From assembly GCA_949752735.1 (NCBI GenBank), contig OX457038.1, positions 20,572,012 through 20,636,011 of the forward strand: 64,000 bases of DNA. The letters are read 5' to 3'. The stretch's first letter is position 1; the number at the start of each line of letters is the position of its first letter. The position numbers and the translations under genes are program-made. Of the stretch, positions 15,409 to 40,554 are shown piece by piece. Under the pieces are notes generated by a model. It saw only the letters and a program-made list of their open reading frames with translations. It ran no database searches and was not told the origin of the DNA. The DNA is from Lumbricus terrestris. Lineage: Eukaryota; Annelida; Clitellata; Crassiclitellata; Lumbricidae.

Positions 15409-15414
15409 CACGTA
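15409..15414. repeat. Target-site duplication CACGTA, left
   Basis: The hexamer CACGTA directly precedes the 5'-AG terminus of the Polinton-type element and is repeated exactly at 23,647-23,652. A 6-bp duplication is diagnostic of Polinton/Maverick integrase-mediated insertion. Confidence 0.95.
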
Positions 15415-15882
15415 AGTAGTGTTAATAGGCCGGGGGTAAACCAGTTAGTATTAATACTAACTAGTAATTAATTAGTAATTAGTTAGCTATTATTAATAAT
15501 TAGTTAAATAATTAGGTCAATTATATTAATTAGGCCAATTATCTTAATTAGATCAATTAGATAACCTTAATTAGATCAATTAGATTATAATTTTGCCAAT
15601 TATACTAATTAGTTAGATATTATTAGTAATTAGCTATTATTAGTGATTATCTAGCCCTAATTAGCACAACAAAGGATCTGTTAACCCTAAATAGCACTAC
15701 AATGGCACCGGCAACTCACATAATTAGCGATTATTACTAACTAGTTAGCTATTATTAGTAATTAGTTAGCTATTATCTACCCCTAATTAGCGCAACAAAG
15801 GCCCGGGGAGCCCTAATTAGTGCTACGGGGCCCGCCCGCCCGCCCGGGGCGCGTCATCGGCGCTGAGGGTGCGTAATATTAT
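15415..15882 (+). repeat. Left terminal inverted repeat of the Polinton-type element
   Basis: Positions 15,415-15,849 are, by direct base-by-base comparison, identical to the reverse complement of the right repeat (435 bp, no mismatch). Similarity continues with small changes to about 15,882. The outer 370 bp are AT-rich, built on TAATTAG words. The inner part is GC-rich with CCCGCCCGCCCGCCC at 15,831-15,845. Confidence 0.97.
15831..15845 (-). other. G-quadruplex motif in left terminal repeat
   Basis: On the minus strand this reads GGG-C-GGG-C-GGG-C-GGG, the shortest-loop form of the G3N1 quadruplex consensus. The mirror copy is at 23,216-23,230 on the plus strand. Confidence 0.8.
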
Positions 15883-15959
15883 GATAATTCTTAATCGAAT
15901 TAACTATTATGATAATTAAATATGCTAATTTTCTGGCTCTTCGCGCTATAGCAGGAAAT

Positions 15960-16145
15960 GCGGTGCCCAACCAGCGTGCGAGAACCACAATAGCCCAGGA
16001 ATCTGCATCCAATCAGCGTGCGAGCCCCATTCTAGCCCAGGAACCTGCGACCAATGAGGGAGCGAGAATTCTATAGTGTGCCCAACCAGAGTATGAGGCC
16101 TCTTTTAGCTAGAAATCCGTGGCCAATCAGAATGTGAGAAACTTA
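15960..16145. repeat. Degenerate CCAATCAGNGTGCGAG repeats
   Basis: Five diverged copies of CCAAYCAGNGTGCGAG occur (near 15,967, 16,008, 16,051, 16,079 and 16,121), some separated by a GCCCAGGAA block. They lie between the left terminal repeat and the polymerase 3' end. CCAAT is a known NF-Y core, but any function here is a guess. Confidence 0.6.
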
Positions 16146-16201
16146 CTAGTAGAACATTTCTAAGTATGAATGAACAAACACAAGATTTTTCATAACAATT
16201 C

Positions 16202-16207
16202 TTTATT
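16202..16207 (-). terminator. Poly(A) signal for the element polymerase gene
   Basis: TTTATT on the plus strand is AATAAA on the minus strand, about 260 bases past the polymerase stop codon. It is the only canonical hexamer I noticed between the stop and the left terminal repeat. The UTR region 16,255-16,455 has loosely repeated TATTTACAATGTTCGACG-like units. Confidence 0.55.
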
Positions 16208-16468
16208 ACACACGAGTATGCAATCTTTATGTTAATGTGATTGCGCAATATCTTGCGTGATGGTGCAATGTCTTCAAATATTTACAATGTTCGGCGCATA
16301 TTACAATTCAACTAACTACAGAGTTCAATACTTTTCGCAGAGTCCATTATTTACAATGTTCGACGGCTTTTCATATTTCAAATATTTACAGAATTCTACA
16401 ATTTTTCGCAGACTCCTTTATTTACAACCGTCGACGCCTTTTTCGCATTTCAACTAACTACAAATTCT

Positions 16469-19400
16469 TTATACAACATTTACATTTGGAATATTCACAT
16501 GGCCGTAAGCTAAGGACTCGGACGAATTTAAAAGATATCGCTTGTCATCGTAAGGGGAGAGAGCTGCCTTTTGCACTTCCACAGTATGTAATTCGTGCTT
16601 CTTACTTTGGATAACACAGAATTTTGAACTAGTAGGCTTCTCCTCCAATATGCATGTGCGGTATTCAGCATGTCTGATGCACTTCTTTACAAATCCCCTT
16701 TTGATCCCTTTAGCAGTCTTCTTTTCCTTCTCCCCGGCCAGCAACAAACTATACATCTTCGAGCGAAGCCCGCAAAATTCAATCACAGCATCCCCATTGC
16801 ATTCGTCCTTGAACTTTCCAATTACTTTTGCGTTGGAGCGACTATGCAAAAAGTGCTCACAGGGATAGTCTGATGTATCATATTCGTCTATGTGAAGTTG
16901 CATGTCTGTGTATATGTCGCGTGTGAAAATTTGATAGCAAAGACTGTCAGTGTCTGTAAAAAGGAGTTTGCAGGCAGATCCATAAATGGGGATTATATGT
17001 TGGTAATGAAACTCGTACATTTTCAATTTTGATATATCCAAAATGCACATGCCGGCGTAAAGGGGCTTGTTGAGCAAGACGTTAGAATTTGTGAATTTTA
17101 TCACGGTCAAATGGTCATTTATTATATTGTAGGACTCAAAATTTGGACGGGCCACGAAACGTTTGGCTCGTTTCGCGTTGGTGACAAGTTTCACGGCAAT
17201 ATGCTTCCTATTATTTTGCATTGTTTTACCATAAATCGAGTTGTTCATTAATTTAAAGAGGTCTTTTTCAAAGGAAGATTTTGCAATCTGCCGTTTGGAA
17301 GTGTTAAAGTCGATATATGGCTTCAGCCATCGACTTTGGCGAAACTCGAGGATTTTATGAATTTTGGTCAAACGCATGCCCATTTTAAGATAGAATTGTA
17401 GATTTCGATAATGAACGACGTACCGGGTCTTTGCCATGAGATTGGGCACCAATTTTGTGACCCCGGCACCGATTTTAGCCGAAATTTTCTGCGAAACGGA
17501 CTTTGCGTACGGGGATATCATGTCCGGTCGTATGTGAAGCGTCTCTGGTGCAAGGGGATAGTCGTTGTGATCGTCGTGAAGATGAGAAGGGTAGTCCAAG
17601 TCCACGTCCAAAATATATCCCAAGTCGTCGTCTGTCGATTTAGTGTCCAAGTCAAAGTCGTCAATCTCGTCTTCGTCCAAAAATCGAAATTTACCCGTCG
17701 GAAGCGGTTCGGACATGGCATATCCGTAGAGGTTGTTGCAATCCAAATACATGATGTAACTGTTTGGACTGCTTGGATCGTATCCTTGGGCGAGATACGG
17801 ATTGTTGGCCTTTGCGTACCGATTAGAAATCATCGATACGCCGCCTCTCATGCCCCGCTCCACAAACAGGTAAATGTCCGGTTCCGTAATCAAGTCCAAA
17901 TTTACGTTTGTCATGCGCAAGCACGCGTCGAAGCTAAGTCCAGGGCTGCTGTAATAGTGAAGCGGATCCAATTTATAAAAGTCCAAGGACATGACACGAA
18001 AAGATTCAAAGACATCAGCCAGTAAAATGACATCAGTCTTCAGATACAGATCGTGGTAGTCCTGCATAGTTGACATATTAAAAGTCTGCCAAATTTTCTG
18101 GGCATAGTCGTAGTCGGCCTGCGAGATGTCTTCGTCCGTCAATTTGCTAAAGAAACAGCCTTTGGGTGGCAGAGTCCTTTCGGTCATTCTGCAGGCTGAC
18201 GTCATGTACTCGTAGGGAAATACCCCCTTACGCAAGAGCAATTTGTATTCGGTCGGAAAAATTCGCCGCAAATGTTTGAATTTCGAATCGTCCTCTTTCG
18301 ACAAATTTTTGACCAACACGTCCAAACCGCAGTTTAGAAATTGAAGGGAATCCAAAAAGCGTATATTATTGACTTCAAACGAGAGATATTTTTCCATATT
18401 TGTGGCTATGACATTTATTTCTTGCGCTGCAAACTCCTTTGTCATGTTTTTGAGAATAAGATGAGAGTCGTAACCTTTAAGGTTATGGAAGATGACGGGA
18501 AGAAGGTAATTTGCAGATTTGCCTTTCTTAGATTTGGTGGGCTTTCGAAATTTAAGTTTTAGATTGCAAGGAGAGCAAAGAGCAGAAACAAAGTTACCAG
18601 TCATATGACAGTGGTGTCGAACGTTGTTGGTTCCGGAAAAAGCGGAAGAGCAAGAAGGACAGACAGTGCAAGATTCAAATTCTAACCGCTGCTGCTGGGT
18701 AAGAGGAATCATGGGTTTATTTGTAGCCAAAATTTTGTTAATGCGTGTTTGCTCGGATTTTATATGCGTAAAGAAATGCTCCATCACATCTGGACCAGAG
18801 TACGTGTGTGGGGCAGCGTCGTTCAAATGTGAAAACGAAGAAACAGTCAAGCAGCAGAAACCGCTGGGTGTGTGAGTATCGAGAATTTTTGTTGCAGCGG
18901 TTGTAGTTGCAGTGTCGTTTGGCGAGAGATAGCTTTCAAAATCCGAATATATTACGCAAGGCACAGGCATTTCATGTTGTGTGTTTGTGAATGAGAGATT
19001 TGAATTTTCAGGTGTCGGATACCGCACGGACTGAAGTCCGTGCTTGCCGCATTCATCCATGTGCGCATGCTTCCCAGCAGCAGTGGTAAAGCAATAGAGA
19101 CAGTAAGGGCAAGGAAAGATTCTATGTTCATGAGAATTGCGGTCATGTAAGAGAGCTGAAAGATTGCGTATTGTGATATAATGTCGTTTCTCCCCGTCGT
19201 CAAGAAGAAGAAGAGAAACAATATGTTTCCTATCCCTGTGAGCACTGGCGTATAGGGGCGTAAAGGACTTGTCATCGGGATTTGAATACATTATGTTGAT
19301 TGAGTAATCAGGATTAAGACTCTCAAAGATCGGAATCTGATCAATGGTCATGGGAAATTTCAAGCCTTTAGTTTCAAGCTCCTTCACATAAGACTTATAG

Positions 19401-19796
19401 TGGCTGATCCTATGTGGATTATTAGTCTTGAAATGACTTACAGCTAACACGCTGTAGAGAAAACACAGATCGTCGAAATTTTGTATATTTAAAGTAGCAT
19501 GCTTATTTGCGATGTATTGTGGGGTGGGAATGTATGTGGATGCTCCAATCGGCTCGTATACGGCATTACAAAGTTTGAAATCTGCTACACCATTTACCAA
19601 CCATCCTGAACTCTGGCTCGTGAAGACATCTACCAATTCGTCGATGCGATGTACGGCATCTTGCAGCTGGTCTGGAATCTGCGACGGATGTAACAGTGTT
19701 GCCGGCACGGACTTGAAATATCCGACCGTCTGTGTTTCTCCGTCTGGCGTGGGCCGCTTGAAGCTCACATCAACCGCCACGTACCATTTCACCGGC
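16469..19796 (-). CDS. polB: Protein-primed DNA polymerase B, exon 6 (catalytic exon)
   Basis: This 3,328-nt exon encodes all catalytic parts of a DNA_pol_B_2-type polymerase. It starts at a splice acceptor (a T-rich tract then CCTGTAG) and has no in-frame ATG near it; GTG is the first start-like codon. Numbering from residue 195 of the joined protein, in order: a C-x2-C...H-x3-H-type zinc finger (CPYC, about 422); ExoI YSDFE (about 476); an endonuclease-VII-like zinc cluster containing VRHHCHMTGN (about 585); ExoII HNLKGYDSH (about 630); ExoIII YLKTDVILLADVFE (about 777); motif A DCNNLYGYAM (about 878); the protein-primed TPR-like insert with LHDDHNDYPLAPE (about 930-945); motif B NNSIYGKTM (about 1044); motif C DTDSL (about 1141); and KMYSLL (about 1206). 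All metal-binding acidic residues are present and there are no stops or frameshifts. Related polymerases occur in Polintons, adintoviruses and adenoviruses. Confidence 0.97.
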
Positions 19797-20536
19797 CTAC
19801 AGGAAAAAAAAAATTAATATACTATGCAATTCGTATATATCGCGAAATTAGCACGAAACGGCTAAGTCCGACTGTGGCAGTGAACAATTTCTATGTTCAA
19901 TAATTAGAGAAATGTGCTCGCTCTAACAGAAAATTTCTAAGTCCAAACGATAGAGAATTGTAATTGCAAACAATCTTGCAGAGCAAAAATTTCTAAGTCC
20001 AACATTTTAGAGCGAAAAATTTTCTAAGTACAAGATTTGCATGTTCACAATTTCTAAGTCCAAATTACAGAATCAAAATTTTCTAAGTCCAAATTGCATG
20101 TGTAAGACAAACTCACCCTTCGTCGCTGAATGTAGCTTCCAGGGTCTCGGTCATGCGCGCCGCTTCTCCCAGCAGCATCCCGTGAACATCTGTTGTTTGC
20201 GAGATCGGCAGCACCACATCCATGAATACATTTTGTGCCGACGTGGCCACGCCTGGATTGGTCGCTTTCTTCATACAGGTGATGCAGTTCTCCTGGCCGG
20301 ATCTGAAGAATCGTGATGGTCTTCGGCACTTGCACTGCGAGCACTCTTTGCACAACCGACAGTTTTCGCAAAGCCCGTTCACCAAGTTGGTCGTTTTGTA
20401 GTTTCGACAAGAATCGCATCGACCTAAAGACATACAGAAAATTGTAAGAATAGTATAAAATCTAAAGAGTGAAATGTAGGCACATTACGATTGATTTAAA
20501 AGATCTACAAGTAAAGCGAGAAGTGCGTGTGCGTAT

Positions 20537-20602
<66 letters not shown>

Positions 20603-21358
20603 CACATAGGAAGAATGTAAAAGTTAGTCTGTTCAAAATGTTAAAGTTCCTTACTTGAAGTGCCTGGCTCTGCTGGAGATGCCGACCTCGTGTCCCTGCC
20701 GCTGGTGTTGGCCGCCGCTGCCGCGGCGCAGCCGCCGGAGTTGGTCGCCGCCGCCGCCGAGCCTTCTTCTCGCGGGATTTCCGACAGATCTGCAACATAC
20801 AGAAATAGCAAACATAAATTTCTTTACAAATGTCGTATTTGAAAAGTATAAGGTCGTTAAAATTGCTCAATGCAGAACAAAATTCTGTGCTCGTAAAGTA
20901 TAAGTTCGTTGAAAATGTTCAATGTAGCAATAAAATTTTAAAATATTTTTGAAAAGTACACTTACAAGCTCGCTTTGGTGCGCGGCCGATGTCCGTGTCG
21001 GCCTTTCGCTTGAGCTCTACAACACAATGCATTCACCATGTATAAAATCTTACAAAGTATTTTAAATGCAAGAATTATTTCACAGAACTTTAAAAAAATT
21101 ACAACAAATTTTTAATATGGCATATTTTGAAAAATATAATTTTTGTTGATTATAAATTATTCACATTAAAACTTACCCATTTCTCGAATTGACTCCTTCA
21201 GCTGCGCTTCGATCTTGCGCAATTCTTCAATTTTCGCGCGTATGCTGTTCACTAAAGAAAAAATATCAAAATTGCATTAGCGTTGAGAATCTGTGTGCGT
21301 GTGTGTTCTAAGTTATCTAAGCACATAAAGAATAAGAAAATGCTCTACCTGTTTCCAT
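16469..21358 (-). CDS. polB: Six-exon gene for the element's DNA polymerase B, about 1,301 aa
   Basis: I infer exons 21,349-21,358, 21,177-21,251, 20,966-21,016, 20,655-20,789, 20,117-20,423 and 16,469-19,796. Every inferred intron has GT donor and AG acceptor, most donors read GTAAG or GTGAG, and several acceptors have T-rich tracts. Codon phases agree at all five joins, giving 3,906 coding nt with no internal stop. The N-terminal 190 residues hold a short predicted coiled coil (exon 2), a Lys/Arg-rich possible nuclear-localisation patch (exon 3, KRKADTDIGRAPKR), an Ala/Ser/Thr-rich linker (exon 4) and a CxxC-rich zinc region (exon 5). The product should copy the element by protein priming in the nucleus. 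The exon model comes from splice signals alone and needs RNA evidence; exon 6 is certain. Confidence 0.8.
19797..20116 (-). repeat. Last polB intron with iterated TTTCTAAGTCCAA motif
   Basis: This 320-nt inferred intron has about five copies of (A)TTTCTAAGTCCAA (near 19,934, 19,988, 20,022, 20,051 and 20,083), and a related TTTCTAAGTATGA lies outside at about 16,157. The spacing is irregular (about 30-55 bp). It may be a short-repeat cluster or an internal regulatory region. Confidence 0.7.
20117..20423 (-). CDS. polB: polB exon 5: CxxC-rich zinc region
   Basis: The acceptor TATGTCTTTAG and donor GG/GTGAGT bound 307 nt. It begins with CDSCRNY, then CENC, CKEC, CKC and CITC, suggesting two or more zinc ions bound by a compact Cys cluster, followed by about 50 residues without obvious features. 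An ATG overlapping the acceptor could be taken for a separate 106-aa ORF (20,113-20,433). That ORF's stop lies inside the splice donor, and the phase fits exon 6, so I treat it as an exon of the polymerase gene. The Cys cluster may bind terminal DNA or the priming protein (inference). Confidence 0.8.
20655..20789 (-). CDS. polB: polB exon 4: Ala/Ser/Thr-rich linker
   Basis: Acceptor ATGTTGCAG and donor CAA/GTAAGG bound 135 nt, phase 1 at both ends, so skipping keeps the frame. The in-frame peptide contains two poly-Ala stretches and Ser/Thr/Gly/Pro residues and looks like a disordered linker. The intron that follows has a (CA)n tract (20,539-20,600, minus-strand sense). The exon end plus this intron resemble the exon at 21,750-21,869 and its intron. 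Confidence 0.7.
20966..21016 (-). CDS. polB: polB exon 3: basic patch
   Basis: A 51-nt phase 1-1 exon between GTGTTGTAG and GTAAGTG. It encodes a Lys/Arg-rich stretch (LKRKADTDIGRAPKRA) that resembles a bipartite nuclear-localisation signal. This would suit a polymerase that must reach a chromosomal element in the nucleus. Confidence 0.65.
21177..21251 (-). CDS. polB: polB exon 2: short amphipathic helix
   Basis: A 75-nt phase 1-1 exon between TTTTTTCTTTAG and GTAAGTT. The peptide NSIRAKIEELRKIEAQLKES has a heptad-like pattern of I/L/A residues among charged ones, consistent with a short coiled coil. Confidence 0.65.
21349..21358 (-). CDS. polB: polB exon 1 (10 coding nt)
   Basis: ATG plus seven bases ends at donor AG/GTAGAG in phase 1, matching the next exon. 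A TATA-like box lies about 200 bases upstream at 21,559-21,565. The start rests on phase agreement and the absence of a better upstream ATG in frame. Confidence 0.55.
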
Positions 21359-21558
21359 GTTGTAGATCGTTGACACACTTAAATCGGGAAATTTTTGATA
21401 TGTATCAGAATATCCCTATATTAACTACTTAATTTCTCTCTCAGACCGGCACGAATCACACTACTTTCGGAAAAATGTCAAATATCAAATAAAATGTAAG
21501 AAGTCAAGATCTGCTGGACTCTGAAGCTTCTGTGTGAATCCCATCGTGTGGTGGTCAG

Positions 21559-21565
21559 CTTTATA
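21559..21565 (-). promoter_or_regulatory. TATA-like box for the polB exon-1 promoter
   Basis: Minus-strand sequence CGCTATAAAGC. If used, transcription would start near 21,530, leaving a leader of about 170 nt before exon 1. A (GT)n tract follows at about 21,669-21,705. Confidence 0.4.
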
Positions 21566-21666
21566 GCGCGGGACTACTTTCTTGATGTATTCCTACGCAA
21601 AATAGTTCCCAGTGCGCGGAGGGATACGCGGAGGGATATTGTTAAGGCGGTAATGCGGTCAAGTCG

Positions 21667-21707
<41 letters not shown>

Positions 21708-21749
21708 ACACACATAGGAAGCCCGTAAAAGTTTGTAATGGTAGCTTAC

Positions 21750-21869
21750 TTGTCTCTCCAGATTCTGCTGCTGTTGGCGCCATCGTGTCTGCCTCCGCAG
21801 TCGATGAGGGTTCTGCATGATTTGCTGACTCTGCAGTGGGCATCGAGCATGATTCACCGTTGCCAATCT
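21750..21869 (-). CDS. Possible alternative upstream exon of polB
   Basis: Acceptor CACTTGCAG and donor GACAA/GTAAGC bound 120 nt, again phase 1-1 in one frame. In that frame the product is Ser/Glu/Ala/Thr-rich with no stop, much like exon 4, and its downstream intron matches the intron after exon 4 (AACACATAGGAAG, then GTAAAAGTT). It could splice into exons 2-5 from the upstream leader exon at 22,228-22,243. Whether it is used, and in which frame, cannot be decided from sequence. Confidence 0.45.
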
Positions 21870-22227
21870 CTGCAAGTGATAATATCATAGGTTATAAAGT
21901 GAGAAAGTTTAACTGTGAGATCCTTATAAGTGTAATAATATTTTATATTCTTTTCAAAATACAAGGAATTTTCCGGTCGTTCGTCATTTTGGACTCTGGA
22001 AAAAATAAATGATCTGCAAATAATATCACTAGTGACTATGTAGTTTGCGCTAAAGCCTTTACAAGATTTCAGATCCATAGGATTATTATACAGCACCCGT
22101 CTGCAAAAATAAATATACATAGAAAAAATGTGCATAGAAAATATTTCTTAAGTTCTAGCTGCATATCCAGCGAATTTACTGCAAAGACCTGTCCTTAGAA
22201 AATTTATTTTAAAATAAATATACTCAC

Positions 22228-22243
22228 GAGAAGATGAAGCCAT
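22228..22243 (-). CDS. Possible alternative first coding exon of polB
   Basis: ATGGCTTCATCTTCTC ends at donor GTGAGT in phase 1, matching the exon at 21,750-21,869. A TATA box is at 22,414-22,420. The surrounding leader is open in all three frames, including one with a basic 62-codon reading from 22,413. That ATG abuts the TATA box, so it is unlikely to be in the mRNA. The frame choice here is an inference from splice phase. Confidence 0.4.
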
Positions 22244-22413
22244 GAATGCTGTAACGATTCGTGTCTGAACACGTCTGCTGGATGTAGAAGATTTCTGTAG
22301 CGCTGGAAATCGTCTCTTGGTCGTATCTCGTCGTATTGAAGAGTCGTCTGTTGTAGATCGTAAGCGGCTGGCCTTCTGAAAACGTCATTGAAATGCTGCT
22401 GCCTTGGACGCAT

Positions 22414-22420
22414 TTTTATA
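22414..22420 (-). promoter_or_regulatory. TATA box upstream of the alternative leader
   Basis: Minus-strand GGCTATAAAAATG is a strong TATA match and would place the start near 22,388. The palindromic TGATRTCA array begins about 20 bases further upstream. Confidence 0.55.
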
Positions 22421-22440
22421 GCCAGTTATAACCATCCTGC

Positions 22441-22940
22441 ATGATATCATCAACCCCCTCGCCAGCTCTTTTAGTATGGTGGGGCTGATGTCAGCATAGC
22501 CTATACAGAGGGGCTGCTATAGTCGGGCATGCCAAATGTTCGGATGATATCATAAGTCGCTTCCTCTGTTCTGTTAGTATAGCTGGGCTGTGTGTAAAGA
22601 ATGTCTGATATCAGCATGTACACCAGCTGATCGACGAGGTGATGTCAGCCTCCTCTGTGCCGCTATTATTGAGATGCTGAGGTAAGCTTCTAGTGGGATC
22701 TGCTGACCGGTGAGTAGCAGGGAGATGAGATCATCAAAGACTGCTGCTTATGTAAGCTTCTGCTGTGGCCTGCACGAACCGTGGAGGGTGTGTCATCAAG
22801 CTCTACAGCTGATGTAAGCAGCTAAGATAATCTGACATCAGCATGCTACTGGTGAGATGAGCTAAGCAAAGCGTTCGGCTGTACGGCGTGAATCATCGAA
22901 TGAACCGTGTAAGCATCTAAGAGAATCTGATATCATCACG
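22441..22940. promoter_or_regulatory. Array of TGATRTCA-type palindromes upstream of polB
   Basis: Seven copies of TGATATCA, TGATGTCA or TGACATCA (22,442, 22,486, 22,545, 22,606, 22,640, 22,833 and 22,928), several extended to CTGATRTCAGCATG. They lie in about 500 bp with no ORF, between the TATA box and the right terminal repeat. The arrangement suits an upstream control region bound by a dimeric, perhaps bZIP-like, factor; alternatively it is a degenerate repeat. Confidence 0.5.
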
Positions 22941-23180
22941 ATCCGCCAGAAGGCTACCCGTTTGTGGTTATAGGAATCCAGATGAATACAGGGAATGATA
23001 GAAGGAGAGAGGAAGAGAAGAAGGAGGAAGGAAGAGAGATATTGAGATAGAGGACGGGAAAGCTATAGAGAAATAATATTTAACTATTATAATATTTATC
23101 ATAATATTTAATTAGTATAATAATTAATTAGTATAATAGATAGTTAGCATAATATTTAATTAGTATAATAGCTAATTAGC

Positions 23181-23646
23181 ATAATATTACGCTCCCAGCG
23201 CCGATGACGCACCCCGGGCGGGCGGGCGGGCCCCGTAGCACTAATTAGGGCTCCCCGGGCCTTTGTTGCGCTAATTAGGGGTAGATAATAGCTAACTAAT
23301 TACTAATAATAGCTAACTAGTTAGTAATAATCGCTAATTATGTGAGTTGCCGGTGCCATTGTAGTGCTATTTAGGGTTAACAGATCCTTTGTTGTGCTAA
23401 TTAGGGCTAGATAATCACTAATAATAGCTAATTACTAATAATATCTAACTAATTAGTATAATTGGCAAAATTATAATCTAATTGATCTAATTAAGGTTAT
23501 CTAATTGATCTAATTAAGATAATTGGCCTAATTAATATAATTGACCTAATTATTTAACTAATTATTAATAATAGCTAACTAATTACTAATTAATTACTAG
23601 TTAGTATTAATACTAACTGGTTTACCCCCGGCCTATTAACACTACT
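23181..23646 (-). repeat. Right terminal inverted repeat of the Polinton-type element
   Basis: Reverse-complement partner of 15,415-15,882. The outer 435 bp are identical, the first mismatch is at the C/T following GCCCGGGG, and homology fades near the ATAATATTA at 23,181. The plus strand carries GGGCGGGCGGGCGGG at 23,216-23,230. Confidence 0.97.
23216..23230 (+). other. G-quadruplex motif in right terminal repeat
   Basis: Exact GGG-C-GGG-C-GGG-C-GGG, the mirror of the left-end motif, about 415 bp from the element terminus. Confidence 0.8.
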
Positions 23647-23652
23647 CACGTA
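23647..23652. repeat. Target-site duplication CACGTA, right
   Basis: Exact copy of 15,409-15,414 directly abutting the ACTACT terminus. Confidence 0.95.
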
Positions 23653-38838: not shown

Positions 38839-40554
38839 ATGGCAACATTTAACCTGCAAATATACTTCGTGCTTTTCTTTACGATGCCAAGTTTTGCTGT
38901 GGTGGCGTCGAATGGTAACTGGTATCCGACTGGTAACACTCTGCCAGGGTTCCGTCCTATGCCGGACAACCGGGGTCGGTGCGAAGCGATTACGATACCA
39001 CTATGCAAAGATATTCAGTACAATGAGACGATCATGCCAAATCTACTAAATCATCAACGGCAGGACGATGCAGGACTCGAGGTACATCAGTTCTTTCCGC
39101 TCGTCAAAGTACAGTGCAGCCCCTACCTCAAGTTCTTTCTCTGTACAGTCTATGCTCCAGTTTGCACGTTTCTTGATGAAGTTATTCCACCGTGTAGGTC
39201 GCTGTGCCTGGAGGCAAAGCAAGGCTGTGAGAATCTGATGAACAAGTTCGGCTTCACGTGGCCAGAAAATCTTGACTGTTCAAAATTTCCAGAAAATGGA
39301 CTATGCGTTGGCGAAAATCGCACAGAATTGAAGCATGATTTGGATAAGTCAAATAATCATGATCAAATTGATCCAGATTTATCTGGATTTGGTGGAAAAG
39401 GCCATCCTCATGCTGATCTGCCATTTGAGTGTCCACCATTTTTAGGTGTGTCTAACAGCTTGAAATATAAACTCCAAGTTGGAGACAAAATAGTAAATGA
39501 CTGTGGCTTGCCATGCGACCCTGAAGAAGACATGTTTTTTGGTCCAACAAGGCGGAAGTTTGCCTGGTACTTGATTGGAATTGCGTCGTCCATTTGTTTG
39601 CTTTCAACGCTTTTCACGATGCTGACATTTCTTGTGGACATGCAAAGGTTCAAGTATCCAGAGCGGCCAGTCATATTTCTGTCTGGTTGCTACTGCATGG
39701 TTTCCCTTGCCTTTGTCACTGGTTTCGCTGTTCAAGATGGCATTGCTTGTTCAGGTCCGTTTTCCCCAGAAAATAATGAACACCCGCACAACAGTTGGAA
39801 GGTAGTGGCCCAGGGCACAAAGAAAGAGTCTTGCACAATTATCTTTATGCTGCTCTACTACTTTAGCATGGCTAGCTCCATCTGGTGGGTCATCCTGACG
39901 CTCACCTGGTTTCTGTCTGCAGGACTGAAATGGGGTCACGAAGCCATTGAACGCAACTCACAGTACTTCCACCTTGTCGCTTGGGCGCTTCCAGCCGTCA
40001 AGACCATTGCAATCTTGGCTACGGGACATGTTGACGGTGATGTTCTCAGTGGCGTTTGCTTTACCGGAATCACCAGTGTTGATGCCCTTCGCGGATTTGT
40101 CATTGTGCCCCTATTCATTTACCTGATTGTTGGGACCTGCTTTCTGCTGGCTGGTTTAGTCTCTCTGTTTCGCATCCGTACCATTATGAAGCACGATGGC
40201 ACAAAGACCGACAAGCTTGAGAAGCTGATGGTGAGAATCGGTGTCTTCAGCGTTCTCTACACAGTCCCAGCAATTATTGTCATTGCTTGCTACTTCTATG
40301 AACAGTCATTTCGTCATGAGTGGATGGTGACCTGGCATGCCAAGATGTGCAGCAGGTATCCCTTTCCTTGTCCATCGTCTAGCTATGCATCGCGGCCAAC
40401 TCCTGACTTCACAGTCTTCATGATCAAGTACATAATGACTCTGATTGTCGGCATCACCTCAGGATTCTGGGTCTGGTCGGGAAAGACGGTTGTCTCATGG
40501 AATAACTTCTACAACAAGATCTTTCGCCGTGGAAGGAAACCTTCACCAGTTTAA
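38839..40554 (+). CDS. fz1/2/7: Frizzled receptor, Fz1/2/7 group, intronless
   Basis: A 571-residue seven-pass Wnt receptor in the plasma membrane. A hydrophobic signal peptide (about 1-24) precedes the extracellular Cys-rich Wnt-binding domain with its ten cysteines (48, 56, 93, 102, 109, 119, 123, 130, 147, 156) and an N-glycosylation site NET at 62. An acidic/His linker follows, then seven membrane segments from about 241 to 545 (first [19 protein letters not shown]). The cytoplasmic tail has KTVVSW at 549-554, the Dishevelled-binding KTxxxW motif. [38 protein letters not shown] and [20 protein letters not shown] match the Fz1/2/7 class better than Fz5/8 or Fz4. A single exon is normal for that class. 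The start has a good context (CACAATGG). The C-terminus PSPV fits a class I PDZ ligand (S-x-V) but differs from the vertebrate ETTV. Confidence 0.98.

Follow-up and report, generated by a model that had tools for sequence, protein, structure and literature searches.

Polintons, also called Mavericks, are typically 15 to 25 kb long and encode a family B DNA polymerase (PolB) together with an integrase (PMC6431247). The intact Mavericks of vertebrates have intronless frames, 6-bp duplications and, most often, (AGT)2 ends, with no more than 38 intact copies per genome (PMC8097293), and 9 of 72 Polintons have been reported without capsid, protease and ATPase genes (PMC4028283). The present work concerns an element in a 64-kb stretch of Lumbricus terrestris DNA, the whole of which we call the window, where it occupies positions 15415-23646 (8,232 bp) and has a polymerase as its sole recognisable gene. 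Our results show that it is a real, high-copy and selected polymerase-only relative of Polintons. Copying by the element's own enzyme is strongly indicated, and the use of a Polinton integrase in trans, for which the AGTAG ends and 6-bp duplication common to both kinds of element argue, is the best inference. We therefore think that this is probably a self-copying 8-kb satellite transposon that is inserted in trans by the integrase of a resident Polinton. The original prediction for this DNA, of a self-replicating but integrase-dependent satellite or a new compact lineage, is thereby supported.

The element resembles Polintons in its PolB of the protein-primed type, in its long repeats beginning with AGT-AGT or AGTAG and in its perfect 6-bp duplication, but it is half as long and no integrase, ATPase or capsid gene was found in it. 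In contrast to the vertebrate Mavericks, its gene is split by five predicted introns, and its polymerase pattern was found at 166 places, where those Mavericks reach 38 intact copies per genome at most (PMC8097293); the two counts are not like for like, since not all of the 166 were shown to be intact. With the capsid-less Polintons it shares the loss of capsid and ATPase genes, perhaps also that of the protease gene, and a transposon-like rather than virus-like character; their integrase status is not stated in the accessible part of that paper (PMC4028283), whereas our element is also without an integrase and belongs to a separate polymerase lineage that has been amplified. Protein-primed viruses and plasmids of the phi29, adenovirus and bidnavirus type are similar in that the modelled fold of our polymerase is that of phi29, but the element is integrated, present in many copies and, as far as tested, without a capsid gene. 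Non-autonomous DNA transposons generally retain their ends and lose their enzymes, and the non-autonomous derivatives of Polintons would use an integrase in trans. The element would do the same but, unlike those derivatives, keeps an intact replicase under purifying selection. Satellites of the L1-Alu or virophage kind are small elements that exploit the machinery of a larger one, whereas our satellite would come with a replicase of its own and depend on the larger element for integration alone. No polymerase-only Polinton element appears in the titles or abstract openings covered by our literature search, a coverage outside which most subscription papers and Repbase reports lie.

Structure, copies and selection

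The terminal inverted repeats of the window element start with AGTAGT, are identical for 435 bp with the first mismatch at position 436, and show 97.4% identity over the first 505 columns of a gapped alignment; a perfect CACGTA target-site duplication flanks them. The repeats with their 5'-AG and the duplication had been predicted, and both held when re-measured in the window. The predicted bounds, 15409 to 23652, enclose a real element but take in the duplications as well. The prediction of one intact polymerase gene was right about the open frame, which lies at 16469-19792 on the minus strand, encodes 1,107 amino acids and is the sole long frame in the element, but this frame is only the last of six predicted exons. 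When the 5' regions of 11 copies are aligned, the predicted start codon, an ATG, falls at 21358, and five introns are predicted, as is a protein of about 1,301 amino acids in which a short N-terminal stretch is followed by a cysteine-rich module and then by the polymerase. All 11 copies keep the exon 4 donor, the acceptor and donor of exon 5 and the exon 6 acceptor, and 7 or 8 keep the splice sites upstream of them. The features of the element, in window positions, are as follows.

15409..15414, no strand: target-site duplication CACGTA, left copy
15415..15849, plus strand: left terminal inverted repeat with AGTAGT start, 435 bp identical to the right repeat
15442..15474, plus strand: subterminal 33-bp core CAGTTAGTATTAATACTAACTAGTAATTAATTA, placed from its match at C4:20587453-20587485 and the window offset
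16469..19796, minus strand: exon 6, which encodes a family B DNA polymerase of the phi29 type; exonuclease and polymerase motifs are present, and a zinc patch resembling endonuclease VII is embedded in it
20117..20423, minus strand: exon 5, module rich in cysteine (putative zinc module); both of its splice sites kept in 11 of 11 copies
20655..20789, minus strand: exon 4, alanine-rich linker; donor kept in 11 of 11 copies, acceptor in 8 of 11
20966..21016, minus strand: exon 3; splice sites kept in 8 of 11 copies
21177..21251, minus strand: exon 2, coiled coil suspected by eye; acceptor kept in 8 of 11 copies, donor GT in 7 of 11 and GC in 1 of 11
21349..21358, minus strand: exon 1 with the predicted start codon; ATG and donor kept in 8 of 11 copies
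21740..22430, minus strand: putative second TATA-like and 5'-exon-like set upstream of the gene, found by eye; perhaps a duplicated promoter region
23212..23646, minus strand: right terminal inverted repeat with ACTACT end
23647..23652, no strand: target-site duplication CACGTA, right copy

The proposed search of the 1.056-Gb host assembly gave 76 matches to the left repeat, many of them as inverted pairs, and 166 genomic places with a 33-bp pattern from the polymerase at up to 2 mismatches (reversed control, 0). A protein search scored the best 42 of 1,630 polymerase candidates, a choice that biases the intact fraction upward; all 42 span residue 1 to at least residue 1,103 of 1,107 at 90-100% identity, and 38 of them are without a stop. 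Fifteen polymerase-bearing copies were read out, nine being the window copy or chosen by their repeats (L011, L014, L016-L019, L028 and L030) and six chosen by their polymerase (L031-L036). Both repeats and a perfect 6-bp duplication were present in 6 of the first nine and 4 of the other six, and because they recur in this way in 10 of 15 copies, a chance origin of the window structure is excluded. The ten delimited copies measure 8,232-8,898 bp, have repeats of 350-570 bp with AGTAGT or AGTAGG ends, and lie between ten different duplications. A one-off internal deletion of a full Polinton, which the original prediction had named as an alternative, is rejected because the element is multi-copy and its polymerase belongs to a lineage distinct from the PolB of the one resident Polinton that was delimited.

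The polymerase of these elements is under purifying selection. In 105 pairs from the 15 copies (10 full-length copies and 5 pieces of 723-1,015 codons), the Nei-Gojobori method gave a median dS of 0.536, dN of 0.043 and dN/dS of 0.087, with a range of 0.055-0.171 for the ratio, which dead passengers would not give. This is the measure by which selection for the copying of its own DNA was to be checked, and it is in keeping with that claim; it also gives the element a replicase of its own under selection, as a satellite of this kind should have. The copies appear to descend from several lineages in each of which a working polymerase was kept. The subterminal core, which lies 27 bp inside the end, is found at 57 genomic places at up to 2 mismatches (control, 0) and in 7 of the 10 delimited copies. 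It bears a palindrome and is exact at 50 of the 57 places while the elements have otherwise diverged. With a median dS near 0.5 between the polymerase genes, conservation of this degree suggests that the core acts in cis, a replication origin or a protein-binding site being the candidates. The core places form 22 inverted pairs of 2.1-10.7 kb, all well short of the full Polinton described below (16.5 kb), and at least 11 of the 22 enclose a polymerase; this is a minimum, since the comparison used polymerase places only on or near contigs with pairs, plus two from the protein search, and dropped most places on C5 and those on C15 and C16.

The AlphaFold2 model of the polymerase has a mean pLDDT of 88.4 and a pTM of 0.86, and phi29 DNA polymerase accounts for all nine of its best PDB matches, among them a complex with the terminal protein. 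A sequence search of solved structures gave short zinc-finger and other weak matches only. In Pfam, the window protein has endonuclease-VII and FYVE matches only, both subthreshold; DNA_pol_B_2 (PF03175) is matched by 11 of 30 homologues and is absent from the window protein itself, and the endonuclease family is matched by 19 of the 30. Seven polymerase motif strings were each matched in 13 to 15 of the 15 copies or pieces; the misses in L011, L017 and L028 lie outside the pieces used, and L030 has one conservative change in its Exo III string. The single protein matched none of the viral contigs scanned, and the polymerase alignment found two of them. Homologues at up to 66% identity occur in other species and metagenomes. 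In a midpoint-rooted tree, in which the fork between the two main groups has a support of 89/94, seven element polymerases group together (100/100) and adjoin P0001 and P0002, apart from the two virus contigs and from L024, a host polymerase represented by one third of the columns.

Among 120 homologues compared, an N-terminal module weakly similar to that of the element is present in P0112 (E 1e-10), P0036 (E 7e-4) and two more (E 0.02-0.04). C2H2-like zinc fingers stand at the N-terminus of the related polymerases P0029 and P0045 (Mytilus edulis), P0036 and P0021, the two Mytilus clusters having 46 and 44 member sequences, respectively. Judged by these sequences, similar elements may be widespread in animals.

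Resident Polintons and noncoding relatives

Full Polintons reside in the same genome. With the integrase (rve) of virus contig L037, which bears a related polymerase, as the query, 129 of 4,227 genome candidates were scored, and all three stretches read around integrase matches (L039, L040 and L041) carry an integrase, a phospholipase-like gene and an ATPase. One Polinton was delimited at C4:24923316-24939850 (16.5 kb), with repeats of 421 bp that are 99.8% identical and start with AGTAG, and with CGCATA on both flanks. It encodes an integrase with rve and chromo matches just below the Pfam cut-offs, Phospholip_A2_4, a Pox_A32 ATPase, a double-jelly-roll capsid protein (E 4e-52) and, by reading only, a putative minor capsid protein. 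Its PolB is 44% identical to the element polymerase (residues 444-1098) and 80% identical to that of L024 over the part compared. The AGTAG ends and the 6-bp duplication are common to this Polinton and the polymerase-only elements. Another virus contig, L038, has a related polymerase and, by reading, ATPase- and capsid-like genes; no integrase was noticed among its frames of at least 120 amino acids.

Proteins of the resident Polintons or a virus contig were used as tblastn queries, at E values up to 0.1, against 11 elements totalling 94 kb (the ten delimited copies and L019). Three integrases gave no match in the elements, while all three matched L039, L040 and L041, and on this basis a hidden integrase exon is rejected. 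Two ATPases, two major capsid proteins, the putative minor capsid protein and a 194-amino-acid protein also gave no match in the 11 elements; the same queries find the host Polinton stretches, partly as self-matches, with the exception of the major capsid protein of the virus contig, a weak query that failed. The phospholipase-like zinc-ribbon protein gave weak matches (E 0.03-0.09) in 5 of the 11, which we judge to be chance. A genome search with PF00770, the adenovirus-type cysteine protease, matched nothing, controls included, and no resident protease was among the queries. The integrase or capsid exon that could have escaped the original prediction was thus not found with these Polinton proteins. 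What the elements have in common with Polintons by definition is AG or (AGT)2 repeat ends and a 6-bp duplication (perfect in 10 of 15); no RVE integrase, packaging ATPase or capsid protein was found in them, and the ten delimited copies measure 8.2-8.9 kb rather than 15-20 kb. We do not class the element as a Polinton, since the tests for integrase, ATPase and capsid genes found none.

Related repeats, together with perfect 6-bp duplications, also mark seven noncoding elements without a polymerase (L012, L013, L015 and L020-L023; 2.2-9.5 kb); the end of L021 has one mismatch. Six of the seven have arms of 1-5 kb, and the group is mostly fold-back. Five further repeat-bearing stretches without the element polymerase (L024, L025, L026, L027 and L029) were not delimited and were left out of this count. 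L024 and L012 each have a repeat end beside a Polinton polymerase fragment; the two arrangements, both on C2, are alike and perhaps reflect a segmental duplication. Another stretch without a polymerase, which ends with a repeat of the element type, contains a transposase-like RNase H domain at L026:3630-4436 (PF21787, E 8.5e-13). Elsewhere in the window, at 38839-40554, lies an intact single-frame gene for a Frizzled 1/2/7-type receptor, for which the nearest proteins are 95, 85 and 81% identical and the named ones among 120 listed are 57-68% identical.

Weighing the alternatives

Several observations weigh against a satellite that copies itself and is integrated in trans. The frames of L011, L014, L017, L028 and L030 are broken, and only uninterrupted pieces of them entered the dN/dS analysis; in L018, whose frame is otherwise open, the Exo III aspartate is replaced by alanine, and this is perhaps a proofreading-deficient or dying copy. 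Five of the 15 copies are not fully delimited: L019 has matching ends and unequal flanks, and one or both ends are missing from the stretches read for L028, L030, L033 and L036. A protein-primed polymerase requires a terminal protein, and none was identified. Only one resident Polinton was delimited, and beyond AGTAG no DNA similarity of the Polinton stretches to the elements was found, nor does the Polinton have the core, so recognition by its integrase would rest on five bases and the 6-bp stagger. The polymerase also has a conserved endonuclease-VII-like patch that, from its sequence, could cut DNA. Finally, 2 of 110 polymerase places (100 of the 166 pattern places and ten from the protein search) have one of the 129 scored integrases no more than 20 kb away, against a null mean of 0.54 (P for two or more, 0.098) for which the sizes of C5, C8, C15, C16 and C227 were estimated. 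In both near cases (C2:43193018 and C2:20812991), the element ends at TACTACT about 1.4-1.5 kb past the polymerase, exactly where the mutual similarity of the two also stops, and the integrase lies beyond; the idea that polymerase copies are parts of larger integrase elements is therefore rejected.

The patch is the basis of a different explanation, in which the element is mobile by itself and needs no integrase, the patch acting as a nuclease that cuts the target and joins the copy, possibly aided by host repair. The patch residues C378, C381, H394, H396, C409 and N410 do not vary among 30 aligned homologues, all 15 copies or pieces have the motif, and phrog_2633 endonuclease VII is matched at E 5e-5. 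The Pfam score is 19.6, however, below the curated cut-off of 23.6, and the ends and duplication length are those of an integrase-bearing Polinton. The same patch, also below the cut-off, is found in the host polymerase of L024, whose 80% identical relative sits in that Polinton, and thus it is not a replacement invented by the polymerase-only lineage. On balance, we find self-mobility rather unlikely. The elements might instead be satellites of one particular lineage of full Polintons that has the same polymerase and was missed in this assembly or is extinct in it. This would be compatible with the small share of candidates scored for integrase and polymerase and with the homologues of up to 66% identity in other species and metagenomes. 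However, both places with an integrase close by end before it, and the size range of the 22 core pairs also speaks against this lineage, which makes it quite improbable. It is very unlikely that the element is an ordinary non-autonomous derivative, formed by internal deletion, with a polymerase kept by chance and with both copying and integration in trans. The end type and duplication length of the resident Polinton would fit such an origin, as would the noncoding elements with related ends and 6-bp duplications, which suggest mobilisation in trans, but against it stand a dN/dS of 0.087 at a dS of 0.54, the last two introns, whose splice sites all 11 copies preserve, and a polymerase that shares only 44% identity with the one in the delimited Polinton and is placed apart from L024 in the tree.

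A proposed mode of propagation

For the self-copying satellite that we favour, the spliced polymerase gene is predicted to be transcribed and translated, and, to judge from the fold and the end structure, the polymerase would start at the AGTAG ends by protein priming and produce linear copies with inverted repeats. Adenovirus combines a protein-primed start with sliding back on its own end repeats, and by analogy priming here may involve sliding back on the AGT-AGT repeat. The dN/dS suggests that the polymerase acts mainly on the DNA that encodes it: since the replicase is kept and an integrase is not, copying would be limited to cis and integration shared. The integrase of the resident Polinton would then recognise the AGTAG ends and join the copy with a 6-bp stagger, as the shared end signature suggests, and the noncoding fold-back elements with related ends would borrow both activities. 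A bolder reading is possible, and we hold it only tentatively: a replicase-only class of transposons, formed by an autonomous, intron-containing and animal-wide lineage of protein-primed polymerases fused to a zinc module, without capsid or integrase, that stands between full Polintons and fold-back parasites and maybe joins its own ends by means of the nuclease patch.

In conclusion, a replicase kept under strong selection in the absence of an integrase means that the two halves of a self-synthesizing transposon have been separated. If our proposal is true, three tiers exist in one genome, namely, the full Polinton, the polymerase-only element and the noncoding fold-back element. To our knowledge, the replication of Polintons has never been directly observed, and such a three-tier system would allow it to be tested on a small single-gene element.

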